Assembly (NCBI GenBank): GCA_963971425.1
Contig: OZ020518.1
Location: 1,379,001 to 1,443,000 of the forward strand
Source: Bryoerythrophyllum caledonicum
Taxonomy: Eukaryota > Streptophyta > Bryopsida > Pottiales > Pottiaceae
Reading direction: 5' to 3'
Length of the DNA: 64,000 bases
Position numbers and translations under genes: made by a program. Under the pieces are notes generated by a model. The model was not told the DNA's origin. It worked only from the letters and a program-made list of their open reading frames with translations, and did no database searches. Below, in pieces: positions 33,891-62,790 of the stretch; position 1 is the stretch's first letter; each line of letters starts with the position of its first letter.

Positions 33891-34560
33891 GGATTGGGTG
33901 CACGGACCAGGGGTTAGTGCCAAGTCGGCTAGGACTGGGCGCGCGACGGGTTGCGGACTGAGCGAGGACAGTTCGCGGACTGGGCGCGAACTGGGAGCGG
34001 ACGGTTTAGACAAATCCGGAGCGGACGGGGATCGGACTGGGAGCGGACAGCCCGCGGACTGCCCGCGCCCCGTCCGCGGTCTGGGCAGGGAATGTCCGCG
34101 GACGTGGCGCGGACGGGGTGCACATGTTATAGAAAGCGGAAGGGGTCCCCATTGTTTGACACTTTCTTAGTCCTAGAAAGCCTTGACGCACTTGCCTCCA
34201 CGTTGACGGCAGTGTGCGGGGCTTCAAAGGGGGAAAGTGCTCCTTTTGAGGACCTTTATTTTCCCAAGGGGAGATGTTTGTCCTCAGAAGCATCTGCTTT
34301 TTCACTATTATAGGCGATGGTTATGCCAACGGTGGGGTTTCAGCAATCTATCCAACCATGGCAACATTATTTTGAAGTGCATGCTTCAATTTGTAGCCTA
34401 GGCAGCACTATTTTGAAGTGCAGGTAGTCTTCGGATTGTTGGAATAGAGCAGTTGTTTTAGAATTCTTGTACGATAATAGATAATGTGGGAAAGTAAATA
34501 TATATTATTGTAAGTAACTTTTGTGATACGGGAATCTGTAGAAGACTTTAGAAGAATTTC

Positions 34561-36795: not shown

Positions 36796-37641
36796 AGCAT
36801 CACATTAATTTGCGGAAGTAAAGGATTAAAGATTCAGTAAACTATGACCAAGTCTAATTTCCCGAATGAATTAGTGTAACCAAAGCTCTCGTGTTCTTAT
36901 CTTTGACATTACGAACATAGAATTCACAGTGAGTTGTATACAACGAGATATTTTTTGCCCATTTTGAATGCATTTATATCGAGGTTCAAAGCAAATTTGG
37001 ACATTACCGTTCTCACATTGCCAAAACTTGTAGTTACACGGCGACCTTGTTGTCTCCCCCAAATCCCACCCCTACAGCAATGGCAATTGCAAAGAACAAT
37101 TCAAAGGAGAAAAACGACGCCCATTTAGCGGACAGGCCGCGGGCAGTCCGCGGTCTCTGGGGGCCAGTCCGCGGGCAGTCCGCTGCCAGACCGCGGGCAA
37201 GTCCGCGGGCAGTCCACGGGCAATCCGTTGCCAGTCCGCGGGCTCTTCCAACCTAATCCGCGCCCCGTCCGCTGCCAGTCCGCTGGCAATCCGCTGCCAG
37301 TCCGCGGGCTCTTCCAACCTAGTCCGCGCCCAGTACGCGACCAGCCCGCTCCCCGACCCCGCTGTTCTCCAGGTTCCCAACCCTATCCGCAATGTTCCCG
37401 ACCCCTTGCATCTTATATAAAGACGGATAGGCCATTGACGTCCTCACTTTTTTCCCTCCATTTCCTTGCCCAATAGGAACCCGAGACCTTGTTGCGCGAG
37501 CACCATTGCACGGGTTTTGAGGGTATAGGAGTTGGGAGAGACGAATGCGGGGGAACCCTTGTCAGTTTTTTCCAGACTTACTCACTTTTGCACTGCACTT
37601 TAAGTGATCGATTTAAGTGACCAGTTAATTATTTTACAAGA
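36796..37641. other. Intergenic spacer with GTCCGCGG block
   Basis: Holds the 3' flank of the RING gene, the GC-rich palindrome block at 37120-37370, and a probable promoter of the next gene (TTATATAAAGACGG near 37412). Confidence 0.5.
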
Positions 37642-39594: not shown

Positions 39595-40419
39595 TATATA
39601 GTACATTGTGATTTCATAGTCCTTAGATACTGTAGGGTATGTAGCATCTTCTCCATGTTGTAAAGTGTTGTCTAATTTGTATTCGATTATTTGCAAGAAG
39701 AGGATGCTTTTTTGGACTTCCCTGTAATTTTGAATGAAGAACAACTTTGTACAAATTGTTTTGATTTGGTCTCCCAACCCCGCCCTTTGTATCTTCAGAA
39801 ATAAAAATGGAATAACGAAATTCAAAAATATTTTAACTACCTATCCGTAGCCTGTCCGCGGGTCCAAGTTCAGTTTGCTGCGTATTCGCAGCCAGTCCGC
39901 GGCAGTGTCCGCACGCAATCCGCGCCATGTCCGCGGACGGTCATCGCATGTCCGCGTGCAGTCCGCTTCTAAACCGCTCCCTCTGAAAAACCCCCCAACT
40001 TAATTAATTTTCACTGAAAGGTTAATACAACACAGCAAAAGGTAAAAGTGGTGAGATACACGTAGGATGTCAGTGCCACATAAGACGGCCACGTCGATGC
40101 CAAGGTAACATATGTACCATACATAGGGGTAAAGTTCATCTTTTACCCTAGGTTGACTCTATTGTGTCGTGACAAGAGGGTCCGTCACGACATGTCACGT
40201 CATGACGGCACGTCACTGTCACAATGTCACGATAGACAACTCTGGATCTAGGAGTGTTGGAGATGTAGGGAAGGAGGGAATACTTGGTTGGGAGTAGCAG
40301 GATTAAAGAGACATCTAAAGTACCTCAATATGAAGCTGAAATCCTTACAGCGCTTTAAGGACTCCGTGCAAGGGGAAATAATAGATACGCAAGCGAACTC
40401 TAATTCTTCCAACAACAAC
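39595..40419. other. Right flank of the GTCCGCGGAC element
   Basis: Contains the third GC-rich palindrome block (39850-39980) and a GTGTCGTGACAAG...GTCACGTCATGACG stretch near 40160-40230 with several nested GTCACGAC/GTCGTGAC inverted phrases. No gene. Confidence 0.45.
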
Positions 40420-40939: not shown

Positions 40940-41830
40940 AAGAGGTTCCTCTGTACCAAAGAGCCTACTAGGCCCATTTATTTCTTTTTTTTTTGTCTAA
41001 TTTTTTGTCTAATTTTTTTGATTTTTTTTCCCGTTCCCAACAACGGGTTAAACATGTTTCAAAAAAAAATTCTTCAACAAATTCTACTATTTCTACAAGT
41101 GAAAATCGTTGAACTTCACAAGTTTTTTGTGAAGCCCAAAAGGATTCCTCAGTACTGAGGAGCCGTTTTGGCCCTCCAAAGTTTTGTGTACTTTCAAAGT
41201 TAAACTATAAAAGAGGCAATAACTTGCCATAACTACTATGACCAAAACAAAAAAACTTAGAGATTACTGTTGCGGAGTAGGAGCTGTATTTCATTGAAAC
41301 TAAGAATTGGTGCATATATATACTTGTCGTCCTCCACGTCTGCCTTGCACAAAAATCTGTATATATAATACAAGTGTTTGTTGTTCACCCAAGCTTTGCG
41401 TTTGCCCAATGCTCCACTGCGATGAAGATTATAATGGAAGCTAGAATTTTAGTGTTCAAAATTATATACAATCTTGAAGTGCCAAATGGGCACTTCGGTA
41501 CCGAGGTGCCATTTTTCCCCTCACTCAAATTATAGTCGAAGCAAGAATTGTAAAATTATGCAAAATTACAGTGGAAGCAAGAATTTTTGTACTCAAATTT
41601 ACGGAGAAGTTTGGAGTGCCAAATGAGCAATTTGGATAACCCCTTAGGGAAAAAAATTCTTAGTGGGCCACAATTTTTTAATAAATTTTTAAATTTTTTT
41701 TTTTGTATTTTTGTTTTTTTTGTTTCCTTGGTACCAAGGTGCCCCGCGACAGGTTTTTTTTTTTTTTTTTTTTTTTCGCCCTTAGACGCTCCCCAATACC
41801 GAGGTGCCCTTTAACACGTGGTAGTGGTAG
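40940..41830. repeat. Left subterminal CGGTACCG palindromes with poly-T
   Basis: Copies: TTCCTCTGTACCAAAGAG near 40944, TTCCTCAGTACTGAGGAG near 41145, CTTCGGTACCGAGG near 41495, CTTGGTACCAAGG near 41726, CCCAATACCGAGG near 41792. Long T tracts follow most of them, as on the right side at 62.1-62.8 kb. Confidence 0.6.
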
Positions 41831-44115: not shown

Positions 44116-44163
44116 GTAAATATTTATACAGTAATGCCATATTTCACTATTTTTGGACTTTGC
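44116..44163 (+). repeat. Left terminal inverted repeat of the 18-kb element
   Basis: It starts GTAAATATTTATACAGTAAT and ends with the small palindrome TGGACTTTGCAAAGTCCA. It pairs with 62043-62086 with two single-base gaps. Confidence 0.75.
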
Positions 44164-44260
44164 AAAGTCCAGAAATAAGGAAGAAGGATTTCAGTGTAGT
44201 AGAACTGTGGCACCAAAGAGATTGAGAGGGATACAAATAAAATTAATCTTAGTCATTCAG

Positions 44261-44470
44261 CCGGATATCTCCGGATGATTTGAGTCAGACGATACGAATC
44301 GATTACAGTGATAGAACCTTGCTCAAGGCGAGGTACGGTATTATCGACAGAAATCCTATTGACTCGATTTTCTTCCCAGAGAATACTTAGGGGTTGCCTT
44401 GAGAAAATGAATTTAGAGCAGAAGGCATTGACATTTCATGGATGCTGTTAAAAGAGCCGGAGATATCCGG
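44261..44470. repeat. Outermost left palindrome pair, GATATC variant
   Basis: CCGGATATCTCCGG (44261-44274) and its inverse CCGGAGATATCCGG (44457-44470). The right end mirrors this with CCGGAGATATCCGG (61665) and CCGGAAGATATCCGG (61836). The internal copies all have GATCTCC instead. Confidence 0.8.
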
Positions 44471-44653
44471 TCGAAAGCAGGGAAAGTAGAAAACATTTGG
44501 TCAGTTTTCAAAAACAAAATTGTTTTTTCGGAAGGGAGTCCGTTTACAAGACCATCACATACTTGATCAACTCTACGAGACAGCAATGACTAGTCTCAGT
44601 GAAACTCCTGGATGAAAGACCAATACCTATCCTGGCACTACCTCTCAAGACTT

Positions 44654-45091
44654 CTAAAGATCTTTCCAGTGCGCCGGCACGTACAGGTCCGAATCAACAT
44701 TAGACCCTGTGTCACAACCAGTTTGAAATGGGCTGCAGCCGCCCTCCGAAGAAGATTCCTCCTCGTCATCATACCATGGGTCGTCGTCCTCCTCTTCTTC
44801 AACCAAAGGACCTCCAAAGACAGTCTCATCTTCATCATAGTCGACCTCGTTCTCGTCCTCCACTTCATAGTCGATGCCGTCCTCCTCCTCTGGAACATAC
44901 TTGCTCTGAGCGTCCTCCTCCAATTCGTCCCGAACACGCCGATTGGAACTTATCGCCCTTGTGTATCTGACTTGAAAGCGAAGCACTCGTCCCTTCTCCA
45001 AACCCTGAGCGTCGCTCACCATCCTTCGTGAAACTCTCCGGTCTACCGAATCAAACTCTTCCCTCTCCCTCTTCCTACTTGCGAAAGCCAT
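44654..45091 (-). CDS. Small acidic protein
   Basis: Complete 145-codon frame from ATG at 45091 (MAFASRKREREEFDSVDRRV). The N-terminal 60 residues are strongly basic; the remainder is a long acidic tract (EEEDGIDYEVEDENEVDYDE; EEEEDDDPWYDDEEESSSEG). It ends SDLYVPAHWKDL. No known domain. The basic-plus-acidic design suits a nuclear, chromatin-associated or activator-like protein. Three exact palindromes lie 590-890 bp upstream (45679, 45762, 45970), so it may be regulated through them. This is an undecayed frame, unlike its neighbours. Confidence 0.6.
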   Translation of the reverse strand: MAFASRKREREEFDSVDRRVSRRMVSDAQGLEKGRVLRFQVRYTRAISSNRRVRDELEEDAQSKYVPEEEDGIDYEVEDENEVDYDEDETVFGGPLVEEEEDDDPWYDDEEESSSEGGCSPFQTGCDTGSNVDSDLYVPAHWKDL

Positions 45092-46048
45092 CTCCTCTCT
45101 CTCAACCCTGGCTATGGACTAACAAAACTAACAAGTTGAAAGACAAAACATATGAATTGGTGCAGACCTGAACCCTTTCTTATACTATCCTCTCTACCAA
45201 CCCACTAATTACAGTTCTCGAGCGTAGGTAAAGGATGAGTCATTGATATAAGTTGCCATAACACCGAGACTGATAGAAATAAAGGCAGCTTCCACAGACA
45301 CGTATGACCAACATGGTAGGCCACGCGTCAAGCGTGTTGTCGTAACGTGATGTGCGAAGTACAATTCCGCCGCCAACCATTAGCATCACATCAATGATAA
45401 GAAGGTCCTTGTACAACTGATATGAAGTGTGTCATTGACCACGAATTATCATTTTAGTTGTGGCATGTCAAAAATCTAAAAAGGAACCAGCCACGGGAAT
45501 AACCAAAAGGTCGCTGATACATTGTTGAAACATCCATCGTAAAATGAAATGCAGTACCGTAGTCACAGAAGATCTCCGGATATGATTCAATACTATTCAG
45601 AACACCTAGGTAAGCTCAAAATTAGGAAGCTCAAAATTGGAACCCCATTGTTGAGAATGGGGGATGTGAATCTCCTATCCGGAGATCTCCGGCTAGATCT
45701 CACCGACTAAAACATGGCAATATACGAACACCCTTAGGTCCACAAAAGATAACTTCCATAGCCGGAGATCTCCGGTAAGCTTTGGGAGAGACATGAGGGT
45801 CCAAAAATATACCGCTAGCAGAATCCAATCAACAGTAACTCTGTCACTCTTCAATGTACCCAAATTACAGTGAATGGAAGAGCACACTTTCGGTCCTCTT
45901 CACGATGACTGGCGAGAGCTGAAAAGAGGGATGTCGAACTCGGGCCCAGATAAATAAAAGCGTCCACAGCCGGAGATCTCCGGTGCTCTTCGGTGTGGAC
46001 GTAGCAACTCTACGAGATTTTTCACAAAGAGAGTTTCACAGAACTGAA
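45092..46048. promoter_or_regulatory. Spacer with palindrome cluster upstream of the acidic-protein gene
   Basis: Exact CCGGAGATCTCCGG at 45679, 45762 and 45970 plus a half-degenerate copy near 45567. They sit between the 3' end of the transposase-like gene and the start of the acidic-protein gene. No ORF of interest. Confidence 0.6.
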
Positions 46049-49000
46049 TTATACATAGAGGGACTGATCAACGTATAAGGGATTAGCGGCATTCGCTTTC
46101 TCTAAGTTCACAAGTGCTGCTTCTTTCATTTTCCGTGGAATGGACCTCGTAAGTTGGTTAACTTTGCTTGACCAGGTCGCAAACAACACGGAACTCACAT
46201 GACACCAAACAGGCTTTTCTTGGTCCGCAATCCAAGTGGCTTCCCAACAGTCCTGGTACTTCCTCTTCAGATTTTTCTGCTTGTTATCAGGCTCCCAATA
46301 CTTAACGAGGAATTTCCCGTAGTTGACATTACCATCTTCCCTGACGACCTCTGAAACTGCTCTTTCCTGCCAGACAAGATAGATGTCAGGATCACTAGGT
46401 CTTACTAAAATCCAGGAGCCATGACGAATGTCACGCCAAGGATTAAAAGTGGACTTGGGGGCTTCATTAGCGGGTCCGCAGTAAGGTTCAAGAACCTCAT
46501 CCTTGGGAGTGACAACCTCTGGTTGTGGAAGCAATCCTAGAAGATTTTCACCTCCGTCATGAGAGCCTCTCCAATCATGGACAGGCCAGAATCCCTCTTT
46601 GAGTTCGGAAGGCGTCTGGGGAAGTGGCTTGTCTAGCTCGTCGATGACATCCTTCCAGTACTGCAGGTATGGGCGGATGGAGTCCGCGTACCCTGCGTAC
46701 TTAGTCATTCCGGACGCCCAGTAGTCAACGTACTTCCGAAGCCCCGTCTTTATAAAGTTTTTGTTCTCCGCCGCTTTCCTGGCCTTGTCTGTAGCAACAT
46801 CTTGGTTTCCAACAGGGCTCTGCTCCTCATTACCCCATATAAGCTTGAAAGGAACGGGATTGGGAGATCATGTTGGAAGCATGGGACGTCCGAAGTCATC
46901 TACCTTCCAAAGTTTTATCGGCTCTCTGTTCATGGCTAACCATTCTGCGTCAACGACAGATTTCTTGAACTTCATGACCGGAACACCGTCATTGTCAACG
47001 AAGAACTTGAAAAGATGCATATCACTAAGTCCCACCAGACGTGCCGCCCCGCTGCATAGATAGCCATCAACATACGATTTGAAGTCTTGGATAACTTCCG
47101 GCATGAAGGCTAGTTTTTGTGACTTTATGAATGCCTTCATCAAATCCGCCAGAATATATGTATTGCTTTTCTTCAATTCTTTCGATAGATGACTAAAGTA
47201 AGCATCAATATCTTCATGCGTATGTCCGACAACCAAGAAGCCAACCTGTATCTCCTTGAAAACACCTCGAGCAGTTAGCAGTGATAAGAATGCCATCAAG
47301 TATTGGTTCTTGTTGTCCTTCGCTAAGTTGTCAAGCTGTAGAAACAATTTCGGTGGCAACGGTTTCGATCCGTTAAAAGCACTGGGCTCCACGGGCTCTA
47401 AAGCGTCGACGCACCTGCTCTTTCCCCTCATGAGCGTCGCAAACATCGAGTTTGGAGGAGGGTGCTCGAAGAGCGCGCGCGTCTCATGTAAAGGTCCTCC
47501 CTCAAGCCGCCGAAAAAATTTTGCCAGAGAGGAGATGGTGGCGTTCGAATCTCCAGGCCATAATGCAGGAGCATAGTGAGCATACGCTCCATCGACATGA
47601 CCGTGAGCCACCATTCCAGTGACATTCATGGGAAGTTGTCCAAGACCAGATGTCGCCTTAGTAGTCCTCCACATGCGAGGAAGGGCAGTCTTCGCCGTGT
47701 CCATCTTGTCGTGAATGACACAAAGAAAGGTCAGCGGCTTCGCCTTCGACTCCTCTCTCGATGTCGCGTAAAGCTTCCGGCAAGATTGCTGGTGATTCAA
47801 GTGAGCCTGCCTATTGCTATAGAATAGCTTGTAAGCGGGCATTCCCTTTGGAGTCGTTAGTAAGAACTGATTGAATTCATCGCAAGTATTGCATTTTGCG
47901 AAGGTGCTTCAAGATGGCTTAATAGCAACATTCCCAAAGAATTCATTTCTAACCCTACTAACTGTGGACTAACTTACAGGAGGAAGACCGTAGGAGTCGT
48001 TTGTCTGCAAGATTAAATAATTACCAAGTGAGAAGAGTATTTCAAAAAGACAATCCAGCAGATAATGCGAAGTACAGAGTATAGCAAATGAAGGTCATTT
48101 CATGTCAACGATGATACAGCCGGAGATCTCCGGTTCTGAAACTAGGACTTCGGTCAACTGAAGAAAGAGAGTTCTAATCCATATCATTATGCAGGGACAA
48201 ATAACGTACAGCATTGACACTGGCTCGAATTTGATTCCAGTTGTTTCCCACAGGAAGATACTTGAGAGTGTCAATCCGACCATTCCGGACACTACGCATT
48301 TGGTGAGGCATCTGATCCGCGTTGTCATCAATAATCGACGTCATTGACCCCATCGCTTGTATAGTGGCAAGCCGTGGGCGCTTGATGCCCTTGGTACCGT
48401 GAGTTGCATTGATGATTCCTCTACTGAAATGTGCGATGTACGAGTGAAACGTGGACTTCCAAATTCCATGGATTGTGTACCATGCAACGGAGCAGACCTC
48501 CGTTCCCAATAGAGTGACGTACTTTCTCTTCCGGTCCCCGTCAATTGAGTGAAACGGCCCGCCTACCAAGATCGCATACTCCTTTCGGTCTTCAAAGGAT
48601 TTGTCATAGAATTTCTGTCTAACAGAAAGAGTCTGGGGTTGTTGAAAATATTGGCAGCATCGTCTAGGACAGCACCTTTCCGAGCTGACTTTGCGAATTT
48701 TGTCATCCATAGTCCTCTTGGTGTACAAGGATTCTTTCTTGTTGAGGTCTTGCTATCGGGAAATAAAGCGGTAAGGCTCCTTTGCACGACCCCCCAAATA
48801 AGCACCAGAATCAGGTTGCAAAGGCAAGGATGCGAAATGATCTATTGTGCTTTTTAAAGATCTCCCGGAAGGAAAACAACATTCAAGAATGGGCCACGAT
48901 TCATGACTCATAATTCTCTCCGTGTCCCCCACAAAAACGTCAAGGACAGTTACACCAATGTTATCTTCTCCCAAGCATCCACTACGGAAATGATCCGCTG

Positions 49001-49523
49001 GTAACGAGGCCATGATTCTTCCAGAACAGAGTACTAACATATCCCCATCCAATCGCTGCACTTCAAGTCCAACCCATCGCTCTCGTGGTACGAAAGGGTA
49101 CTCGTCGGACCGGAGATCTCCGGTTGGAATCTTCACATCCGCCCTTCTCCACAGGACCGTCCGCCGAAGTGTTTGAACAAGTGAACCATATCCGCGTTGC
49201 AAGGGAATGAGTGGAAATTCTTCCGCTAAGGACGTTATGGCCGTTGGTCTAAGTAATACGAACTCACTGGAACCGACTGGTATGTCAATTCCAAGCCATT
49301 GACCAACTGGGTGAACCTCGACAATTGACGCTTCTCCAATTTCGCTTGAACCTGGCCTCAAGAGGTTCACGGACAATCCTGACCACAAAACCTCCGACCT
49401 TCCAGTAGACTCTTCGGATGGATCATCTTCTTCCATAAAATCCGCTCGACCGAAATTGGGGCACTGAGCTGCGACCATGGCAAGATCGTCCGAGTCACTC
49501 TTCCACCAATTAGAGTCAGACAT
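46049..49523 (-). CDS. DUF7869-like putative transposase of the 18-kb element
   Basis: Exon one starts at ATG 49523 (MSDSNWWKSDSDD) and runs to about 48174. A 27-bp exon follows (48004-47978, TNDSYGLPP), then 47917-46049. The middle shows the family pattern RCCPRRCCQYF, KFYDKSFEDRKEY, GTEVCSVAWYTIHGIWKSTF, then STFAKCNTCDEF, FLCVIHDKMDTAKTALPRM (first Asp), LFLQLDNLAKDNKNQYLMAF (second Asp) and VVGHTHEDIDAYFSHL. This is the RNase-H-like core of eukaryotic DUF7869 proteins; a DDE transposase role is inferred. The C-terminus has HGSWILVRP...KFLVKYWEP, reminiscent of a BAH or Tudor-like fold. Interruptions: TAG 48755-48753 (Gln-compatible), TGA 47911-47909 and TGA 46870-46868 (both Arg-compatible). 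A palindrome at 49110 is translated within exon one. Confidence 0.7.
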
Positions 49524-49637
49524 TCTCCCGTCCTCCGTCGGTGGATGTTCGGCTGGTGGCCGATGGCCTTAGTACATGAATAAGTGGACGTGGATTAGAA
49601 CTGAATAACCAAGGTCAAAATCGTAGGGTCTGTCTAG

Positions 49638-49934
49638 CCGGAGATCTCCGGATGACTCGATAATGATCAACAACGTCCACTCCTTGTGTAAGTGAAGATG
49701 AGAAGGGTGAAGCTAGAAGTTCCATTCGTATCTAACCGGAGATCTCCGGTTCATCCAAACCACGCTGCCGTGATATCTTTCAATGGTCATCTCGCCCTTG
49801 AATAGCCGGAGATCTCCGGAAACCCTAGGCTCGTAAAATGGGACAGCCAGATGTTTTTGGGATAGTTGCCGTGGCCTGCAAGTGAGCATGGCAGAATCCA
49901 GACTGTCATGGCTAGAACAGCCGGAGATCTCCGG
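49638..49934. promoter_or_regulatory. Palindrome cluster upstream of the transposase-like gene
   Basis: Four exact CCGGAGATCTCCGG sites at 49638, 49736, 49806 and 49921, 70-115 bp apart, beginning 115 bp upstream of the ATG at 49523. Their position suggests promoter binding by an element-encoded protein. Confidence 0.65.
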
Positions 49935-50758
49935 TTCGCATTTATGTCGTCATCAAAACATCGGCCGTACGGAATATTCGAGGGTGTGGCAGAAAGATTC
50001 AGTCGCCAATCCCTGATCAGTCACGTCATCTTACTTCTCGAGTCGAAATATATTAGGCGCTCGGGATCTATTTGTTAATTAGGAGACGATTTAGTTACTG
50101 AATCACTACACGACAGCTCCCGATCGACTTTAAGGGCAGAATGAAAGACAATCTACACCAATCCTCTCAAATTGAATGCGGATACGAAATTTTACGAGGA
50201 AACAAACCTAACACTCCTTGAATACCTACTTTCTAATTGTTTCCCTGCAGAATTCTAGCACGATGTCGCGTACGCAAACACTCTCACTAACTGGCTCAGC
50301 TCCCACAGTATCCCAAACCTCTAGAGCAAAAAAGGATGAGAGCTGAGTTGAAAGATACTCTTATCAACCTCCTCATCACCTCCTGGTGGGAAAATTCAGG
50401 CGCTCAAATTTGAAACGAATCTTGGGCATGCATACTCTATCATAGTAACTGCTGTACACCATCATGATAGTGCGGATTCTTCGACGTGCCTACGACCGAG
50501 GCCACATTCCACTCATGATAAATGAAAGGCTCGTACTCATGGGATGACCGTATTGTAAGGAAACCATCTAGTTCCCAAAGTGCTGCAAATTAGAAAACGG
50601 AAGATGAAGTATGCACCCTGGTGTATCTTTGTGATTACTAGGGCCGTATCACGTCATGGACTAAGTCACAGTATAATGTAATCGTATTATACTTCTTGTA
50701 CTCACCATTGTAAATGAAATTATACCCTACCCATGGAAAACAGTCGGCCCACTACTAC
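49935..50758. other. Central spacer, left part
   Basis: No palindrome and no convincing ORF. It contains a fading AT-rich non-coding sequence up to the nested foldback element. Confidence 0.4.
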
Positions 50759-51757
50759 CCAATACACTAAAAGTTTCATTTAGTGTAATAGCACGAATAG
50801 TGTACTTACCTTAGTACTTTAATTGCAAACAAGTTGACAAATAGTGTACTAATTGCAAACAAGTGTACTTTCTAAATAGTTAATTCGATCAAAATTAACT
50901 TTATCAATGATAACTTTATCGGAATACACTTCATGGAATTTATTTTTTTTAAGCTTATTTTTACAAGATATTACTTTTTCAAGTTTTACTTCTTAAAAAG
51001 TTTACTTTTACAAAATTTACTTTTCCAAACATTTATTTTTTCAAAACTTTACTTTTCCATTCAATTACTTTTTCAAAACTTTACTTTTTCAAAACTTAAC
51101 TTTTTCAAAACTTAACTTTTTCAAAAATTTACTTTCTTCCAAGTTTACTTTGAAATAGTGAACTTTTGATAAAGTTCACGTTTTTAAAAGTTCACTTTTT
51201 CAAAAGTAATTTTTTTCAAAAGTTCACTTTTTCAAACGTTTACTTTTTCAAATCTTTACTTTTTCAAATGTTTACATTTGGGAAAGCTTATTTTTACAAA
51301 AATTTACCTTTTCAAGAGGTAAGTTGTCTTTTTTCCCCGAATTGATGTTTTTCCATAGTTCTTGTTTTTTTCAAAAATGTTGTTTTTTCCTAATTGTTTT
51401 TTCCTAATTGTTGTTTTCGAAAAACTGTTGTTTTTTCCTATTTGTTGTTTTCCCAAATTGTTGTTTTTTCCTAATTATTGTTTTTTCCCAATTGTTGTTT
51501 TTTCCAATTTTTTGGAAGTGAGTTTTATTTTTTCTCTTCTTCACCTTTGAGAAGACATAATTCTCTTCTACTTTCAATACACTAAACGTGCACGAGTAAA
51601 ATAGTTAATATTCCAATCTTTACAAAAGTTCACAAATAGTGTAGTAGTTCACATTTAGTGTACTATTTTGTCACTACACTAATTGCGTAGTTGACAATTA
51701 GTGTATGGGTTCGTATTTAGTGTCCACTACACTAAATGAAACTTTTAGTGTAGTATT
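50759..51757. mobile_element. Nested foldback element with 25-bp inverted ends
   Basis: TACACTAAAAGTTTCATTTA at 50763 (25 bp in all, to 50787) is matched in inverse at 51728-51752. Between them are additional AGTGTA motifs and two simple arrays: TTTACTTTTTCAAAAC-like units at about 50930-51330 and GTTGTTTTTTCCTAATT-like units at 51360-51520. No coding capacity. Confidence 0.75.
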
Positions 51758-51964
51758 GTTCAACTGACACTACAGGACACAAGTAGAACGTCGACATTCG
51801 TTTCCAATGTGAAATATCTCCAAAATTTCCTAGTTCGACAGAAGCTATTTGTCTACTTTTGAAGATACGTGCACAAATAAATAACTGAGCAGATGCTTTC
51901 AGAAGTACAGCAACCTGGTCCTATGAAAACAGGTACAGCTTCCGTGGTAAGGATGGATTGTTCA

Positions 51965-52155
51965 TCACGGTTTTAGGGTTTAGGGTTTAGGATTTAGGGT
52001 CTAGGGTCTAGGGTCTAGGGTCTAGGTTTAGGATTTAGGGTTAAAAGCTCAGGGTTCAATGTTTACGGTTTAGGGTTTAGGGTTCAGGTTTTCTACTTCA
52101 CGGTTTGGGGTTGAAGGTTAAGGGTTCACGGTTTACGGTTCACCGTGGAAGGTTC
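51965..52155. repeat. Interstitial TTTAGGG-type repeats
   Basis: Degenerate plant-type telomere units: GGGTTTAGGGTTTAGGATTT, then four GGTCTAGGGTCTAGG units, then GGTTTAGGGTTTAGGGTTCAGG. This points to a green-lineage genome and to an old internal insertion or repair event. Confidence 0.85.
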
Positions 52156-52404
52156 TGGGTTCATGAAGGTCGAGGGCTTATATCACCTTTAAATCTATAA
52201 ATTAAATTTTTTTTGATACTATGAACAATAACCTTAAATTTATCGATAACTATAACTTTAAAAAAACTGGATTCAATAGCGTGTAAGAAAATTTAGCGAT
52301 AATTGAACTTTAACTATTTAAGACTTTGATACATTATAATTTAGTTAGAGGGAGAATAAAGAAGAGAGGGAGGATAATGGATTTAATTTTAGAGTAGACT
52401 AGCT

Positions 52405-52665
52405 GTTGGCGCTTGCTTTGCAATGCATTAGCCCAACCATTTTTATGTACTTTTTATATTTAAAAATACTAAAAAATGAAAGGTGGAATGATTCACTGTA
52501 CAGTTGACACCGCGGTTCAAGTAGCGTTTTTGTAGTTCACATCATGGTTGACTACGCGATAGTTCACTTCGTGGTTTATTGCGCAAATTATGATTTTAGT
52601 ATTATGGCTAGGAGTTGGCGCTTGCTTTGCAACGCATTAGTTCAACCATTAATGTAGTTTTAATA
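52405..52665. repeat. Duplicated GTTGGCGCTTGCTTTGCAA block
   Basis: GTTGGCGCTTGCTTTGCAA plus a CATTAG...CAACCATT tail occurs at 52405 and again at 52614, 209 bp apart. A third partial echo (CAACGCATTAGG) is at 53638. Confidence 0.75.
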
Positions 52666-55033
52666 TCACAAAATAATTAAGAAGAAAGGTAACAACAATG
52701 TATATATCTCTTTGAAACCTATGCATGATTTAATAATGCAATAGAATAGAATAGAAAAAATAATTATACTATTACAATAGTACAATATTATTAACCAAGG
52801 ATGGATATTGAGTAGGAAGGGTAAGTAAAAGTAAAATAAATTAAAATCAAGGGAGAGGGAGAGTAAGGGAAGGACAGTAATTGAGAAGGAGAGTAAGAGA
52901 GGGAGAGTAAGGGAGGGATTTATTTTAAAGTAGTTTATATTTTTAGAATATGACACTAGGGGAATTTAGGAAAAAAAAAATAAGTCAAAATTAGAAAAGA
53001 GATGGAGAGGGAGAGTAAGAAAGTGAGGGAGAATAAGGGATAGGGAGGGAGAGTAAGCGAGGAAGAGTGCGGGATTTATTTTTGGAGTAGCAGGTTAATT
53101 TAAGAATGTGTAATTATTGAAATCACGGGGAGTCTAAAAATTACTAGAATCAAGATTAAAAATGAGATGGAGATGGAGAAGGAGGGGAGAGCAAAACATA
53201 AATAAGAAAAACAAGTGAGGAAAAGAAGGGAGGGAGAGTAATGGAGAGGGAGATTAAGCTTATTCACTTATGACGTTTTAAATTCAAGTATAATGATTAC
53301 TCTAATACCCAGTGAACCCGAGTATCTACTGTAGTCATATGTAATACCCAGGAATCCGGGTATCAATACGTCTTGTCACACATGCTCACGACATTGACAA
53401 TTCATGATTGTGAAATGTACACGTTGTATATGTACGTGATTAGAGCTGATTTTTAAGTTCACCCACTGTCATCATGAGCCGTCCCACCCCTTGAGCCGTC
53501 CAGCTTGTCCATATCGGGTTAGGGGAACTCCAAGCATCAAACCTTTCTTGTTTTTTATGGGTGTTGTCTTTGTAATGTCGTAGGTAGTGAGCGGAAGTGG
53601 CGAGAGGGGTTTTTTTCGTGGTTTGCGCAATAGGCGTCAACGCATTAGGTTAGGGCGGTCTGCGCTGTGAGAGGCTGTCGGTGTGCGAGGTGAGTGTTGA
53701 TAAAAGTGAGGGACATTGAGCATATCGTCGAGAGGTTGTTTCTGGATATGGACTGAAGGTCGGAGAGTAGGACTGGAACAGAGATATTGAAATAGGCATT
53801 TAAATTGAGCGAGCGCCTCGGTTCACCAGCGAAGCAGAAACAACGTTGCGGTTGAGGGTGGCGTCTTCACGAACGACCACGACGAACGGGTGCGCCGAAT
53901 CGGTCAGTGAAGAGGTATGTACTGTCTCACAGATTAAAATTCAGTGTCATCAAATATCGTAGTTGCCCAGGACTGCTTAGAATCGGCATTGGGGCAGGTG
54001 TAGGGTTCGGTAAGCGCCATTAGGGTTCAAGAGAGTCAAGTAATTCTGATGTTGTTAGACGTTGAAGCGGAATTGTAGGGCTTAGGGTATAGGATTCTGG
54101 TGTTCAGTGCATTCAGTATAGAAGGTTCATAAATGAGCATGTTATGCATGTTATGCGTGTAAATGAGCATGTTATCCGTAAATGAGCAGTGTTGAAATTT
54201 GTTTTGCGGAAATCTTGTCAATCAGATGTGGACCTTAAATTCTAGGGCATCTGAAAAATAGTAGAGTTTGTGAAGCTGAGTTGTTGAATGTTGATGATAT
54301 TTAGAGCTGTGAATTCGCTTCGATCCCGAGGAGTTCCTCGAGGAGGTTGGGAAATGGCGACTGGAGCTGGAACGTCGAGTGAGACTTCATGGAAAGGAGA
54401 CCGGTAAGTCCACAACATTGAATTGTTTCCACTATGTCCGAGCGACCGTGTGTGGATTCTTTATTTGATTGTGATTCAAATTTGTTCATTTGATTCCGAG
54501 CGGGTGTATGAAAATAGAGTACACTTGAATAATGAATAGAAACCTCAGAAGATGAGTACTAGAATTCAGATATCTGTTAGGTTATAGTCGATTCATTTTT
54601 TGATGTCCCATGAACAGAAGTGTGTTTCAATTCATGTATATGCGTGTGATTATGGTATTGAACGAACGTTAGAATGTGCTTGTCCATACTGAGTCTTTCG
54701 AGTCCGGTCCGATTTAATGACAAGAGTAATCCATGTACAAACGTCACATTCGGCGTTCCATCGGAACATTTGCAGATTCAATTTCGTGTGTGTAAGGTCG
54801 GTTATTGAAAGCATTGTGTGAGCATTCGATACGTCTCAAAACATTGTGTGAGCATTCGATACGTCTCAAAATTCGATACGTCTATTTTGAGCATTGTGTT
54901 TTCTATTTTGAAACATGAATTTTGAGTATGTAAAACTTCTAGAGTAGTATGTCAAACTTCTCTGTGAATGAATGTGAATATACGCGTGATGGTCAGTAGC
55001 GATTAGTGCAATGTTATTCCGTACTTGCTGCAG
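52666..55033. other. Central spacer, right part
   Basis: Purine-rich GGGAGAGTAAG tracts fill 52830-53250. The rest has no gene. Duplicate phrases ATTCGATACGTCTCAAAA (54825 and 54855) and GAGCATGTTAT (54137 and 54166) are short local tandem events. A 5' exon of the right-arm gene may be hidden near 53.7-54.5 kb but I could not define one. Confidence 0.4.
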
Positions 55034-55496
55034 CCGGAAATCTCCGGTTGCATCCCGAACGGAATACGGAGTTCCAATAATCAGCCGGAGATCTCCGGAT
55101 AATGTCGAGGCTGATGAGTCTTAAAATATTTATCCACGATTTAGTAAATCTCGAAAATATCCGGAGATCTCCGGACATTACGAAGCAGTGCATATACGCG
55201 CGTAGGAAGATGTGAATATCGTGAAACTCGTCATTCTGGTCATCATCTGGAGATCTCCGGTTCAGGATAGAAATGGATCCGACTGATCCGCACCGAATTG
55301 TTCCTGGACGGATGCACACGACTTCCACAAATCAGCCGGAGATCTCCGGACACTTTCGCAATGGAATTAAACGAAAACGAATGCCATTGCTACTCACAAT
55401 CCGACATAGAGCTGTAGATCTCGGGACGTTTCAAGTAAGTATCGATACCCCCTCACGCCGACTATAGATCTTGCCTGCCGAACCGGAGATCTCCGG
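55034..55496. promoter_or_regulatory. Palindrome cluster upstream of the right-arm gene
   Basis: Sites at 55034 (CCGGAAATCTCCGG), 55085, 55161, 55247 (CTGGAGATCTCCGG), 55336 and 55483: four exact and two variant copies in 463 bp. It mirrors the cluster at 49.6-49.9 kb, so both divergent transcription units start beside a cluster. Confidence 0.65.
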
Positions 55497-55646
55497 CTGA
55501 GCGCATGCAAGATACTTCAAGCGATTTAAGATCATTCAAGTGTCTGTAGATCTGATAATTGTGCGAAGACCTCCCCTAGCTGGGGCAGTAATAAACTGAT
55601 TTAAAAGCTCGTTTTCTATCATCCATTCCTAGGAATACAGCCGGTT

Positions 55647-58600
55647 TTGAATGACGGACTCCCCATAGGTTACCGGTTAATTGCAGTGATTTCTAACAGC
55701 GTTTGTGTTCTTTCAAACTCATCTTGCAGGGATTCATGGACAACCACACTTTCGACTGAATGTCGTCCCGGGAAGCTTGGGGCGTTTGTAGAGTTCTGGC
55801 TCCCTGAGTTTGTCTACAGAGGAATTCACAATGTTGGCTACGTCTACAGATGCCGACAGAGCATTAGCCAGTGGGGAATGAAGCTCTTAAAAACCTCTGA
55901 AGAAGCCTGGATATACGTCCCCCAACTTTGGATTGGGAAACGCGGACACCCCAACATTGGACTCGAGGTTCTAGAGATGCAGGGTCTTGACGACGAGGTC
56001 TGCCTCTTTGTTGTCCAGGAGAACGTCGACTCATCCACCAAGCCTCTCATATACGGCTTGATTCTGGAGACATCAAAGATTTCGGATGAGATGGCGGAGA
56101 CATGTCAGACTGAGAACTTCTTATACGGCCCTTCCACGAGTGATACTTGGAGGCCGGAGTACGTTAATGAGCAGTGGAAGTGGATGGCAGAAGCACAAGA
56201 GAAGTCCCGAAAGCCCGTTCCAGACCCGACACCCATTTTGTCCCTGACACCAGAATCAACCCCGGGAAGAAAACGCAAGACCACCTTGAAAACTTCGACC
56301 CCAGGTTCCTCGTCACGGGCGGAGAAGGGAAAGAAAGCGAAGGCCGATGAGCCTGGCCTCGCGATCAAATAGTGCCTGAACTTCACACAAGCTGACCTCG
56401 CCAAAATGAAGCGGACTGAAGTTGAAGCAATTGGCAAGGTTCTCGACGACGCGTTCAAAAACATATACATACTCAAGAATAAGCCTTTGACAGTAGAAGA
56501 CCCTGTCACGAAGAAGGATGTCGTGAAGCTCGTTCATTTCAATAACCTACAAAGGGCCCCCCCTGGAGAATTAGTGTACAGGGGCATCCAGAAAGAACGG
56601 CTCGAAGGAATCATCAACGCAGTTCGCGCGTCCTCGAAGGCCACGGCCCTTGAGATTCACATTCGAGTCTTGCCACTGAAGAAAAAACCTGAAGGAACTA
56701 TGGTGGAGTTCTTTGCGACCAAGCCGACGAAGGAGGACTGCCTTAGGGACACGACACACTTTTACATTATTGGTAGTCAGCATACTGTGGAGGCGCACAA
56801 GATCTTGTCAAACGAACTGCCAACAAAGTGGACGCTTGAAGAAATATCACACTTCTCTATCATCCCGGTTTGGACCAAACCAAACCCCAAAGACATGACC
56901 CTGCTACAACTCTCGCGCGCTCTGAACCAAGATCTGATAGGTCTACGGAAGGAGCAGAGTTTTACCCAGCAGCTGCAAACGTGCAGAGTGAAGTGGTTTG
57001 AGTTCGGAAAACCCGCCCCCCAACTCTATGGTCGTCCACAATCTGACGAATTCTCGGTAAGCTTACATCCTCCGCCTGAATATATTTCAATTTTATCAAT
57101 GCGCTTATTCTTCAAGCAACCAATCCAATCTACCGGAGATCTCCGGCTGCTCACACACTGAGTTATATATTATTGCAGACGTTCCAACGGCAAGTAGTGC
57201 CGACGGTTTTCACTCACCTCGGCAAAACTGACCCAAAAGACGCGAAGGTCCCTCTTTTATTCGAGATGGATGACGCGGTGGTCCAGAAGTGGATCCGAAT
57301 CGATAGGATGTTCGTCGCTCGACTCCTGCCAGACTCGAACGGGAAGACTGGCGACCGAGCTAAGCTGAAGCGGAAGCCTCTGGTGTAGAACGACTTCAAG
57401 CCACTCTATAAAAATGCACGCTGAAGACCTTGACTACCTCGCAGAGTTAGTGCTCGCGAAGAAGGTCTGTGTGAAGTCCTCCAAAGCGGCAAACCAAGAT
57501 ACTATGAAAAGGCAGGCCGAGACACTCGAAAACGCGGCGAACAGGGAGAAGAGAATCCGGGCAATGAAGAATGAACTGATGTTAAATTACAAGTCGCATC
57601 CCCTTCCCTCGAAGGCTGCTGACTTCGTCCCTTACACGAAGGAGCAGTGGGACGCCTTTGCGGCAGAGTGGAATATTGGACGGGTTCAGCTCGAGTCCTA
57701 GGTGGACGCCGCTAATCACTCTGCCAAGGGTAAAGCTTGGCTTGAGGGTTGACTGAAGGCGATCAACAAGGAGACCGACCCCACCCCAAACGTCCTTGTG
57801 TCCATTTGGAATCAATACATTGTTGAAGATGTTGTCGAGGCCACACTCACGGATGACACGTCCCTGTTCGACTCCAAATACACCTGCAAGGTTATGCCAG
57901 AGAGAGGGGGTGAGATCGCCGAAGTACTTATCATGCCGGACATTCAGGAGTGGCGTAACGTCAATGACCCTCACTTTTACTTCTTTTTCCTCAATCGCGT
58001 GAAAGACGACATATGCCGTGCACAGGTCCTGGATGCGTTGGACTTCAGAACCATTTTCGACCATCTGGAAGTGGACACGAAGGACGGGAGGACGAGGGTT
58101 AGATCACCGTCCGTTCTTATCACCGATGTCGCAGGATTCGTTGAATTGAAGAGGTACATCAGTCTTCGGCAGGGAGAGTCCAGGGGCAAGGTGAAATTGC
58201 GGGCGGCGCATGTGGTCTACTACTTCCCCCACCCAGGTGATTGGTTTCCGACCCCAGTAATCAGGGTCGAGGAGGCAGTGTACTGTGTATTCCTGTATGA
58301 ATACGACTCGAGCGAGACGCCTGCTCAGTCATTCAAGAGGCTCTACAAAGTCCACGCAGACAAAATGCAGGCCTTCTTTTCAGCTGCTCAACATCAAGAA
58401 ACCATCCAGCGCTGGAAGCAAACCGGTGTCCCATAGCTGAGGATCTCGGTCCTCGATTCGCTGTTCACGGGGTTCATTAGAGAGGTTTGGTGGTCGTCAA
58501 TGTCCATGGTGGACCACATTTAACATACCTCGGATTGGTAAGCAGGACATCCTTCCCAAGCACTTCAACGTCATAGATTTCTGGTCCGTCTTCAGTTATA

Positions 58601-60740
58601 TATTTTGGATGACGCCTTACGCATGTTTTATCTTGCAGACTCACGACGCGCGGGTCCTTGAGATTGTGAGCAGTGAAGATGCCAAACTCAAGGCAGAAAC
58701 CTGCGCAGAAGAAATATTCAAGTACCACTTGAATATCTTAGCCGACGTATCCGACGCTGCTGCCGAGGAGGCAGAGGAGACTGCCATCACTGGGTCAACC
58801 CCAGGCGCTGGTGTTCTAACACGGGCAATGTCGAGGATGAACTACACCGGCGAGGTATAACGCCTAAGAAAACTACATGACCCGGAGATCTCCGGTTGCT
58901 CATACGTTTCGGATGCCCTCCATATTTTAAGGCTCTTCTTTCTCATGGCCATGCTCAGATATAGTTCACCCGGTAGACGAGGACCACTTTGAACCGAAGA
59001 TCTCCGGGTGTATCATACACTTTTTTTTTGTATTGCATCCTAATTTTTTTCACACTGACTTCATCAATGTGACGCAGAGGCCTGATGCCACGATGATTGA
59101 AGTTGATGTGCGGTATGAACCGAGTTCATCAGCGGCACCCAACATTGGACTCCAGTCCTTGGCCACAGCCGCGCGGATCATCGGTGCGGGCACCCCAATC
59201 GACCCCATACAAGTAAATGTTGATGAACCACCTCTTCCTATCAGACAAGCCTCGCCTAGTTCAAGAAGCAACTCTACTCCGGACGCTAGACAGGGTACTT
59301 CTGAAAAGGAAACCAATTGGCATTCCGGCATGCCACGTTCTCCTCTGCCAGAACGGGACGATGACACGACACTGTCCAATCGCCTGGACTTCGACGACAT
59401 CCAAAGAGCACCCGGAGATCTCCCGCTAGACGACCCTTCGAGGACGCGTCCAGAAGTTGAGGTTGTGTGCAAGAGTGCCGAAGACTTGACGTTGCGTGAC
59501 ACCGATCAAACGATGGATGAGGCGCAACAGACTTTGCGTGAATTACATGCTATGAGCCCTCTACGCAGCCCTCCGCGAAGCCACGGGCACCTGGCTCAAA
59601 AAGAGAAGAAGAAAGCAATCGCGAAGAATCCTGCGGCGAAAGCTCCTCCTCCTCCACCTACAATTCAAACAAGGGCCCAGAAAGATAAGGTGAATAGTTA
59701 CTTGTCCATTAAACCTTCTTCATTGTTCTAAGGACAGTTCACTCGATGCAGACCTTATTCTTACCACTTCATTACTGGAATTCAGGGGTCCGCCGGATCA
59801 ACACAGTCGAAGGATGTCGGTGACAGAAATCCCGCACAGACTGCTCAAGTCGCTGGTGTAGCTCAAACTTCTAGGGATACTCCACCTACTGTCCCAGGTG
59901 CCTAATATGTACATTCATACTTATGTGCCATCATCTATATAGTGCTCATTCTTCCATCGAGCAATTCTGGATTGTGAGTGCAGAACACTTCTATATGTAT
60001 AATTGAAATTTCACTGTGCTGAACAACTTCCTCATCTCAGTCTACGTACTCGTATTTTGGGTTCAGGTTCGACAAAGCTTACTACGATCGTCCGAGAGCC
60101 TCCAACCGAGGATCAGGTAACATCCAATCGGGTTTATCATGTCGTGTTTGACTTAAATGGAGTTCTTGTGCACAAGGGGGAATTCAAACAGGGACAACCG
60201 AGAGACATCAAAGTAAGGCCTGGTTCCATTGAACTCCTGAACTTCGTGGGAGAGAAGGCTACTATCTCATTCTGGAGTAGTGTGGTGGAAAAGAATATTG
60301 TAGATATTATCAAGGAATTGCGCAAGAAAGGTGTTGTCATTCCGGAAGGTGTCACAATCCTGACGCAGGCCCATTGCACAAAAACATCATATACGCTCCC
60401 ATCCCATCCAACGAAGCCAATTTTCCTAAAGGACCTGACAATTTATAACACCAAGGCGTGGCCCAGGTCTCCCAAAGATGTCTTGCTTGTGGACGATACC
60501 CCACTAAAGAACGTCCTTAACGATCCATTCAGCGCAGTTCATCCGCCATCATGGACTGGGTTGTCGAATGAAACCTGGTTGTCCACCATTTTTCTCCCAT
60601 GGCTCTCCGGACTGCTAGCGTCAAATGAGGATGTTCCCGACTTTGTTAGACGTCATCCTTTGATGTTTGCCAGTGATCCAGTAGACAAAAATTCCAAAGA
60701 GGCCCGCTCCGTGGTGAAGGGTATAATTCCGGCGCCTTAG
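55647..60740 (+). CDS. ParB-like protein fused to FCP1/NIF-type HAD phosphatase domain
   Basis: Exons about 55647-57056, 57179-58537, 58639-58854, 59078-59689, 59786-59897 and 60067-60740; phases agree from 58639 onward. The 5' end is open (no ATG; upstream exon likely). Near 56.5-56.9 kb a ParB-like segment: YRGIQKERLEGIINAVRASS, then HFYIIGSQHTVEAHKIL, then a part parallel to the ParB-methyltransferase protein (FSIIPVWTKP...LSRALNQDL). A Pro/Ser-rich linker follows. The end is a HAD domain: VVFDLNGVLV (second Asp of DxD is Asn, as in the plant DLNG family), TISFWSS, DVLLVDDTPLKN. Interruptions: TAG 56370, 57386, 57699 and 58434, TAA 58521, TGA 57751, a shift near 57405 and possibly one near 58537. 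Palindromes lie in its introns (57133, 58882, 58993). Confidence 0.62.
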
Positions 60741-61095
60741 AACAATGAATTATACTGGATATTATAAACTCTATGCTTTGTAAATGTTAAGTCAAGGATG
60801 TCTGTGGGATTTCAACCATTCAATTTTGAAGATAAATGTTGTTGTCAGTAACGTTATTTGTTGAGGTCCTTCTTTTGATTTGTTATTGTTAGTGTCTCGC
60901 CCCCAAACTTCAACTTCCAATATCTATGATCACTTTTGAGTATTCTCCTGACCATTTCGACTGCCGAACGTTGGTCTGGGAGGGGCACCCGAAGATCTCC
61001 GGTCGAATTCCTATCACTTGAACTCCTCCTACCATATTTTCTCTTCATTCCAATGTTCAATTTCTAATTCGATGGTCTTGCCTTCTTATTTGCAG

Positions 61096-61548
61096 GTCAT
61101 AATCATATTTCTCCGCGGTCCTCTCTGCTCGGACGAGGTCCTTGACTCGGCCAAATCCCGCTCCACGCAGCTGCCTTCCTTTGATGACACGGCAGATGTT
61201 ATTCGAATACTACTGCGGTATTTCAATGTCGGGATTTGGTCTCCTATGCGTCCAGATAGGCTCATGGAGGCGGCCCAAGTGTTATTGCCCCCAGACATCT
61301 TATCAGATATTCTTTTTTGCTATGCCAACAAACAGACTCGAAGGCCTAGCTATGTTAGGTTTCTCCACATCTTCAAGAAGGCCTCATTTAATCCTCGAAC
61401 AAGGCATTATTTGTGGTCCAAATGTGTTGTTGTTGCAGATCTAGATCCATTCAAGAATCCTAGAAAGGCTATAGTCCATTATCTAACTTATGGGAGACAC
61501 CATACAGGACGGGTAGAGGGCATCTATAAAGCACTTAAATTAGAATAG
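61096..61548 (+). CDS. Unknown C-terminal exon, right arm of the 18-kb element
   Basis: An exon after a good acceptor (TATTTGCAG) reads VIIIFLRGPLCSDEVLDSAK, then DDTADVIRILLRYFNVGIWS, EAAQVLLPPDILSDILFCYA, RHYLWSKCVVVADLDPFKNP and KAIVHYLTYGRHHTGRVEGI, ending TAG at 61546. 150 codons without a break. The composition is typical of a folded, mostly helical domain. I do not recognise the family. It may be the last exon of a small gene or of the long gene upstream after alternative splicing. A degenerate palindrome lies just upstream at 60989-61002. Confidence 0.45.
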   Translation, partial: VIIIFLRGPLCSDEVLDSAKSRSTQLPSFDDTADVIRILLRYFNVGIWSPMRPDRLMEAAQVLLPPDILSDILFCYANKQTRRPSYVRFLHIFKKASFNPRTRHYLWSKCVVVADLDPFKNPRKAIVHYLTYGRHHTGRVEGIYKALKLE

Positions 61549-61664
61549 TTGAATCGATTTTCCGTAGATTACACGCGCCTCTTAGCAACGGCCACCCTTT
61601 ATTTATTGTATGACACTTTTTTATAATGAAATAGTTTAGTATTGGACTCTTACTCTGATTTCAT

Positions 61665-61850
61665 CCGGAGATATCCGGTTGCATGTTCTATCAATTGCGA
61701 GTAATTTCTGTCCACAGCTCTGTCCCATTTTTCCCTACCACATTTTTTCCAACTACACATTTGTGATGTACAGTATGTCCATCAATTTCTTTTTTTAGGA
61801 CTCGGTTCTTCTTCTGAATTCCACCTTGATATTTACCGGAAGATATCCGG
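61665..61850. repeat. Outermost right palindrome pair, GATATC variant
   Basis: CCGGAGATATCCGG (61665-61678) and CCGGAAGATATCCGG (61836-61850). They mirror the left-end pair at 44261 and 44457. Confidence 0.8.
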
Positions 61851-62042
61851 CTGCATGCTGCCGACTCACGTGTTGTCAAAATTCAAATTTGGTCGCTCTA
61901 GCCATTTCTTCCTTCATAAGTGTCATTGGTGATGCATTTAATGTTTAAATAGTACTCTAAGCTCCTCGGCTTTTATGCTTCACTATCTTTTATGAGGCAC
62001 ATCTCCGGATCTTTCTTTTAGTCCTTAGTCCAAAATTCACCT

Positions 62043-62086
62043 CAAAGTCCAGAAATAGTTAAATATGGCATACTATAGATATTTAC
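62043..62086 (-). repeat. Right terminal inverted repeat of the 18-kb element
   Basis: CAAAGTCCAGAAATAGTTAA to ATATTTAC. It pairs with 44116-44163. Confidence 0.75.
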
Positions 62087-62100
62087 ATCAGGACAACGTT

Positions 62101-62790
62101 CCTCGGTACCAAAGAGCCCCTCGGCTTGTTTTTTTTTTTTTTGATTTCGCGTACAGGGCGCTCCTCAGTACCGAAGAACCGCTCAGCTAGGTTTTTTTTT
62201 ATTGGTTTCGCCCTCCAAGCGCCTCCTCAATACCGAAAAGACCCTCCACTATTTTTTTATTTTTTTATTTTTTTTTTATTTTTTTTTTGGGTTTCGCTCT
62301 CATGGCGCTCCTCGGTATCGAGGAGCCCCTCGGCTATTTTTTTAATTTTTTTTTTGGTTTCGCCCTCAGGGCGCTCCCTGGTACCGAAGAGCCGCTCAGC
62401 TAGGTTTTGTTTTTTTTTTGTTTCGCCCTCCAGGCGCCTCCTTAGTACCGAGGAGATCCTCGACTATTTTTTTATTTTTTAAATTTTTTTAAAATTTTTT
62501 TTGGGTTTCGCCCTCATGGCGCTCCTCAGCACCGAGGAGCCCCTCGGCTCTTTTTTTTTTTTTTTTTGGTTTCGCCCTCAGGGCGCTCCTTGGTACCAAA
62601 GAGCCCCTCAGCTAGGTTTTTTTTTTTTGGTTTCACCTTCTAGGCCCTTCTCGGTACCGAGGAGTCCCTCAGCTGAGTTTTTTTTTTTGGTTTCGCCCTC
62701 CAGGCGCCTCCTCAGTATCAAGGAGCCCCTCGACTTGTTTTTTTTTTTGTTTTTTTGGGTTTTCTGTTTGGTTTCGCCCTCGGCTGGTTT
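62101..62790. repeat. Tandem array of CTCCTCGGTACCGAGGAG palindromes with poly-T
   Basis: About ten units of 55-75 bp. Each has GTTTCGCCCTCAGGGCGC, then a near-palindrome TCCTCGGTACCGAGGAG, then CCCCTCGGC, then 10-20 T. Copies start near 62101, 62160, 62226, 62307, 62373, 62437, 62520, 62585, 62648 and 62705. The long open + frames here are translations of the T tracts, not genes. It is the right subterminal region of the outer transposon. Confidence 0.85.

Follow-up and report, generated by a model that had tools for sequence, protein, structure and literature searches.

A DNA transposon of about 18 kb, lying in a 64,000-nucleotide stretch of the Bryoerythrophyllum caledonicum genome (contig OZ020518.1, positions 1,379,001 to 1,443,000; hereafter the window), carries some two dozen copies of a palindromic word that, judged by its sequence, behaves as a binding site specific to the transposon's own family. 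With moderate confidence we read this word as the place, ∼20 bp long (CAnCCGGAGATCTCCGGnTG), at which a two-fold symmetric protein in the service of the family binds DNA. The core of the word, the 14-mer CCGGAGATCTCCGG, has 15 exact copies in the window, each at a position given by the original prediction, and no exact copy elsewhere in the 64 kb. Allowing up to three mismatches yielded 28 matches, 27 of them within 44261–61850 (15 exact, eight with one mismatch, one with two and three with three; the match at 45980 overlaps an exact copy), and the numbers given by the original prediction are correct. The claim that the word is absent from the rest of the window held for exact matches, the sole match outside this span (24005) having three mismatches. 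With at most two base differences there are 24 sites inside the element. Such a word had not been expected by chance, and 100 shuffles of the window gave no exact match.

The same picture emerged from the whole 437-Mb genome, which contains 2718 exact 14-mers compared with three for the reversed letters, ruling out a chance word, and 4841 compared with 58 when one mismatch was allowed. We listed 50 of the 2718 exact places, all in the first 6.8 Mb of one contig (C1); they form four clusters, each 4–15 kb long, with 16, 16, 7 and at least 11 copies, and three of these clusters contain transposase matches. The original prediction had named two outcomes that would count against it, the word being common in unrelated DNA and family copies lacking it. 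All 50 listed places fell into the four clusters, and all 30 transposase loci (the window included) carried 3–5 exact 14-mers within 4 kb. Among the 50 of 2718 places listed, the word is therefore private to the element family. As a background, at least 120 stretches of viral contigs contain the 14-mer, and none of 120 holds two copies.

Symmetry and conservation of the sites

Two further copies of the element were obtained as 20-kb stretches and compared with the window copy (W). Copy A (L163 and L164) is 86–88% identical to W in the two longest blocks and 68–78% in the others, and copy B (L165 and L166), whose right end lies beyond the stretch, is 91–93% identical in its three longest blocks. 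We aligned the 23 window sites that have no more than one mismatch (46 arms) and 22 sites of copy A (44 arms), the latter mostly being window sites by descent. The second position outward from the 14-mer (−2) was A in 37 of the 46 window arms (p=1.7e-13) and in 34 of the 44 arms of copy A, and the third (−3) was C in 23 window arms, T in 13, G in 10 and A in none, with a single A among the 44 arms of copy A. The site is thus ∼20 bp long with symmetric degenerate arms (CAnCCGGAGATCTCCGGnTG), so that of the 14-bp palindrome originally described the palindromy stands and the length does not. Arms of this kind are the imprint of a dimeric protein, unlike that of repeat copying.

Conservation between lineages was determined from 31 copies of the 4-kb transposase region, which holds five sites and divides into two subfamilies of 20 and 11 copies. 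When the majority letters of one subfamily were set against those of the other, 441 of 4039 columns differed overall, and none of the 70 site columns did. Within subfamily A the sites had changed about as often as other non-CpG bases (8/1000 versus 707/71352), whereas within subfamily B they had changed less (4/550 versus 897/39395). Near-neutral decay of sites after insertion in subfamily A fits selection that acts only on the still-moving lineage. CpG decay (to TG or CA) within the two subfamilies was 4/200 in sites versus 136/4080 elsewhere and 3/110 versus 111/2103; it is somewhat lower in sites, but on such small numbers protection of the sites of inserted copies is not clearly indicated.

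Comparison of W with copy A gave a similar result: identity of site columns was 99.4% in one half of the element and 95.2% in the other, where the 25-bp flanks reached 73% and 77%. Of 23 sites with no more than one mismatch, 21 aligned without gaps and 15 of these were identical, compared with 10.8% of noncoding 14-mers (4429 windows, which overlap and hence are not independent). A word that stays constant between copies while the adjoining DNA changes is what would be expected if a protein serving the element reads it. The proposal of an element-wide recognition code is borne out to the extent that the word is element-wide, private and evolves like a recognition site.

The element, its genes and the placement of its sites

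The original prediction took 44261 and 61850 as the termini of the element; these are the edges of the outermost sites, and the start of homology places the ends further out.

44134..62071: complete element (17,938 bp); copies A and B are homologous from 44134 onward
44134..44162, plus strand: left terminal inverted repeat (TIR), 29 bp, ATGCCATATTT...; a few copies differ by one base or more
62043..62071, minus strand: right TIR; a similar right TIR is present in copy A, and the right end is known from the window and copy A

An ∼18-kb transposon with inverted ends was nonetheless correctly recognized: it measures 17.9 kb, its 29-bp TIRs are 93% complementary and its left boundary coincides to the base in all 30 loci, of which the window is one. 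Since the left-end query itself began at 44134, the boundary rests on the flanks rather than on the start of the match; the 24 bp outside it differ among the 30 loci, except that L180 and L184 have them in common. One of these two loci may be a segmental duplicate. Copy A may have a target-site duplication, TTAT/TTAT; in the window the bases flanking the ends are AGTA versus ACTA, and homology to a third copy (L201) ends before the right end. CACTA termini were not seen, the ends of the element reading ATGCCATATTT. The element is a DNA transposon with TIRs, a precise left end and a predicted DDE/RNase H-like transposase fold. Degenerate TTTAGGG telomere-like repeats lie in mid-element (51972–52100). 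Repeats of ∼60 bp centred on GGTACC (CTCGGTACCGAGGAG-like) adjoin the right end (62097–62755), and two related units lie at 40944 and 41722.

The open reading frames (ORFs) and presumed genes of the element are as follows.

44655..45091, minus strand: small acidic ORF, 145 aa from the first ATG; open in copy A too
46052..49532, minus strand: transposase gene; DUF7869 (PF25273, E=3.1e-43), RNase H/DDE-like predicted fold
55605..58857, plus strand: accessory gene with presumed introns; homologues P0121–P0127; stops interrupt the reading in this copy
56373..57056, plus strand: ParB-like region of the accessory gene, from protein alignment and hhalign
60003..60740, plus strand: ORF resembling NIF/FCP1-type haloacid dehalogenase (HAD) phosphatases (PF03031, E=1e-12)

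The transposase reading of this copy is interrupted by stops at 48753–48755 and 46868–46870, and an AlphaFold2 (AF2) model of the protein (predicted local distance difference test score (pLDDT) 74, predicted template modelling score (pTM) 0.78) has a DDE/RNase H-like predicted fold. A literature search found no paper on DUF7869. Among viral contigs, 100 stretches matched a DUF7869 pattern and none was confirmed. Among genome contigs there were eight loci (L121–L128), 24–36% identical and all in one cyanobacterial (Trichormus) metagenome-assembled genome (MAG), where they are probably eukaryotic contamination of the bin. These eight loci lack the 14-mer, their most repeated palindromes being 8-mers in 3–4 copies; being distant and short, they say little about generality. 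In the ORF at 60003–60740 the first acid motif reads DLNGV, which by motif rules we presume may leave the protein inactive.

The sites are distributed over the element as follows.

44261..44274, plus strand: subterminal site, ATATC form CCGGATATCTCCGG; identical in 26 of 31 copies
44457..44470, plus strand: subterminal site, ATATC form CCGGAGATATCCGG; identical in 24 of 31 copies
45566..45983: cluster of four sites (45566, a variant, 45679, 45762 and 45970), 475–880 bp upstream of the first ATG of the acidic ORF
48120..48133: site in a presumed transposase intron, between ORFs 48174–48752 and 46868–47908
49110..49123: site within transposase coding sequence; exact in 29 of 31 copies
49638..49934: cluster of four sites (49638, 49736, 49806 and 49921) starting 115–398 bp upstream of the first transposase ORF's first ATG (49523)
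55034..55496: cluster of six sites (55034, 55085, 55161, 55247, 55336 and 55483) upstream of the plus-strand accessory gene
57133..57146: site in a presumed intron of the plus-strand gene; exact 14-mer
58882..59007: two sites (58882 and 58994) in a presumed intron of the plus-strand gene, from the pattern scan
59412..59425: coding-sequence site CCGGAGATCTCCCG; copies A and B have this variant too
60989..61002: site CCGAAGATCTCCGG upstream of the last plus-strand ORF; exact in copy A
61665..61678, plus strand: subterminal site, ATATC form CCGGAGATATCCGG; identical in copy A, one-base variant in L201
61837..61850, plus strand: subterminal site CGGAAGATATCCGG, with further changes beyond ATATC in the window; CCGGAGATATCCGG in copy A

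Coding sequence makes up 46% of the element and holds only two of the 24 sites (p=7e-5). The other 22 are noncoding, with clusters upstream of three gene blocks, which largely agrees with the earlier description of sites in promoters, introns and spacers. Within clusters the spacing is 51–208 bp and the sites are not clean tandem repeats. The variant at 45566 (CAGAAGATCTCCGG) is retained in 30 of 31 copies. The four subterminal sites have a distinct ATATC form that is not a perfect palindrome and is found at all four positions in copy A too; a separate, retained subterminal class suggests a second role.

Elsewhere in the window we noted GC-rich repeats with an 11-bp period and GTCCGCGG-type half palindromes (33953–34125, 37114–37366 and 39871–39979), which may be the repeats of a further large element, an 8-bp palindrome, ACTTAAGT, with 12 copies within 0.7 kb (966–1698), and a SET-domain protein at 18690–19304. 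This protein and the TTTAGGG-like repeats would point to a plant or green algal genome.

Candidate readers of the sites

The most likely reader, on sequence grounds, is a protein encoded by the element itself, the leading candidate being the opposite-strand accessory protein with its ParB-like region. Such a reader would recognize its own family only, and so spare the host. The arrays of 4–6 sites before three gene blocks, together with the intron sites, may serve to switch on or derepress the element's promoters, and the ATATC form at the four subterminal positions may mark the ends of the element; a dimeric, element-specific protein would in this way control the element's own transcription, much as VANC does.

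The most conserved stretch of the accessory protein reads THFYIIGGQHTVEAHK, followed by IIPVW and then LSRxLNQDxxGxxKE, which by eye we take to resemble the boxes of the ParB N-domain. Profile comparison of the region by hhalign with five viral or phage proteins (L102 and L197–L200) gave a score of 35.3 (probability 27%, E 6.6e-4); the reversed alignment scored 15.4, and none of 40 column shuffles exceeded 27.9. In this comparison VHFxxLHRAPP..VYRGI..ERL is matched to the ParB-like start and IIGGQH to IIDGQH. Four of the five yardstick proteins (L197–L200) are named ParB-like by the authors of their records. A tblastn search of phages for ParB with P0121 gave no match. Our boldest reading, to which we give a fairly low probability, is that the accessory protein would load at the roughly two dozen private 20-bp palindromes, coat or mark the DNA of its own family alone and keep promoters open against host silencing, the subterminal form helping to pair or mark the ends; this would amount to a parS-like system in a eukaryotic transposon.

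We also considered whether the accessory protein ends in a methyltransferase, having read VVVNVxGGxHxT by eye in its C-terminal part, but the comparisons lent this no support. Against a single template (the viral methyltransferase L036) hhalign scored 16.0 compared with up to 21.3 in 20 shuffles, and in local alignment 281, 38 and 71 of 500 shuffles were equally good for three forms of the query.

Several points weigh against a dedicated binding site read by the accessory protein. The ParB assignment combines a weak profile match (the probability of 27% given above) with a motif reading by eye; one yardstick, L102, is itself a sub-threshold Pfam match to ParB_N (E 0.16) whose best match is DUF6551; Pfam gives the accessory proteins no ParB match; the region has no sequence match in the PDB; and its AF2 model, at pLDDT 43, was not used. 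As for the sites, W and copy B show little extra conservation in the left half (97.0% in sites versus 91.3% in flanks) and none in the right (91.4% versus 90.9%). In the comparison of W, A and B, a match in one copy was enough for a site to be included, and the alignment procedure may be biased towards matching sites. Positions common to copies by descent reduce the independent sites to ∼24, rather than 2718, and the coding spans are those of our own gene model.

Sites for element-encoded proteins are familiar from EnSpm, where TNPA binds them, and from Ac, where the transposase does. It is possible, though rather doubtful, that here too the transposase itself binds all the sites, the internal ones titrating it or repressing transcription. 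The element does have a transposase gene, whose product has a DDE-like predicted fold, and subterminal sites occur at both ends and are kept as a distinct form. That form differs from the internal one, however; 20 or more of the 24 sites, according to how the ends are counted, are internal, many of them clustered upstream of genes, and the inner subterminal sites are 323 and 393 bp away from the termini. Clustering upstream of genes would equally suit a host transcription factor or chromatin protein that the element parasitizes, but we regard this as unlikely since all 50 listed exact places (of 2718) lie in clusters, so that sites belonging to the host itself seem to be few.

We attach very little probability to a methylation-linked role, in which the CCGG or GATC of the site would be the substrate of an element methyltransferase or a methylation-sensitive switch. 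Each exact site has two CpG and one GATC, and proteins combining ParB-like and DNA methyltransferase parts are described for algal transposons in passages of one study (PMC12477816). A methyltransferase in the accessory protein was however unsupported by hhalign and local alignment, and CpG decay in the sites is not clearly different. Least probable of all is that the word spread without function, either amplified as a very small repeat or carried along when DNA was duplicated locally: two sites (49736 and 55483) are gaps in copy A, so that sites have at times been gained or lost locally together with the adjacent DNA, but site flanks are unrelated apart from the symmetric degenerate arms, site columns resist substitution between lineages and variants are mostly substitutions. 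Spread by micro-insertion is likewise disfavoured by the W/A/B alignments and the arm analysis.

Relation to known systems and significance

The original prediction compared the palindrome with the VANC target motifs of VANDAL transposons and the TNPA sites of EnSpm, a likeness that is apt for a possible mode of action but does not extend to membership. A Pfam scan of 10 ORFs revealed no protein of VANDAL/MULE or EnSpm type, nor did we encounter a MULE-type transposase (VANA), the sole match of the transposase ORF at E up to 1 being PF25273 (DUF7869); moreover, the word is a long palindrome rather than a short tandem motif. TNPA sites of EnSpm are subterminal, ∼12 bp long and repeated near the ends, where they are bound by the element-encoded protein. 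Our element shares repeated short sites near its ends, but these belong to a form of their own, and the majority of its sites are internal. In bacteria, ParB reads the palindromic site parS in the service of segregation. The likeness here lies in a palindromic multi-copy word together with a protein that has a putative ParB-like region; the differences are the number of sites, ∼24 in 18 kb, and a role that would be regulation rather than segregation.

In the passages on VANDAL that bear on the comparison (PMC5735166), a short family-specific motif in the noncoding parts of a multi-gene transposon is read by the transposon-encoded VANC protein, and related proteins have different motifs. The VANC21 motif is 9 bp long (YAGTATTAY) and accumulates as tandem repeats, and nowhere does that paper call it palindromic. 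Our element has the same arrangement of a private motif in noncoding DNA, but with a dispersed ∼20-bp palindrome, a DUF7869 transposase and a reader that is a candidate only. It may work like VANC, but by its transposase it is not a VANDAL.

A parallel in gene content comes from the 21.5-kb Ectocarpus Sola1 element (Sola1-1_Ec32), described in the relevant passages of PMC12477816 as having a ParB-like and methyltransferase gene opposite the transposase. Like our element, it is a DNA transposon of ∼20 kb in which a large gene faces the transposase and encodes a ParB-like domain, whose counterpart here is putative. In contrast, the methyltransferase domain of the Ectocarpus protein could not be demonstrated here, and that element is filed as Sola1. 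The ParB-like accessory proteins of algal giant transposons are proposed in the same passages to bind their own transposon, and no binding site is given in them. Our literature search, which covered titles and the starts of abstracts and lay mostly outside subscription papers, found no description of a private palindrome of this kind.

If the pairing of palindrome and accessory protein is right, it would supply a candidate target site for the self-binding proposed for the algal ParB-like proteins (PMC12477816, in the passages cited), and address words spread over a whole transposon would then have a second, non-VANDAL example. That sites decay almost neutrally once inserted, yet are conserved from one subfamily to the other, is a contrast that can be used generally to look for such addresses.

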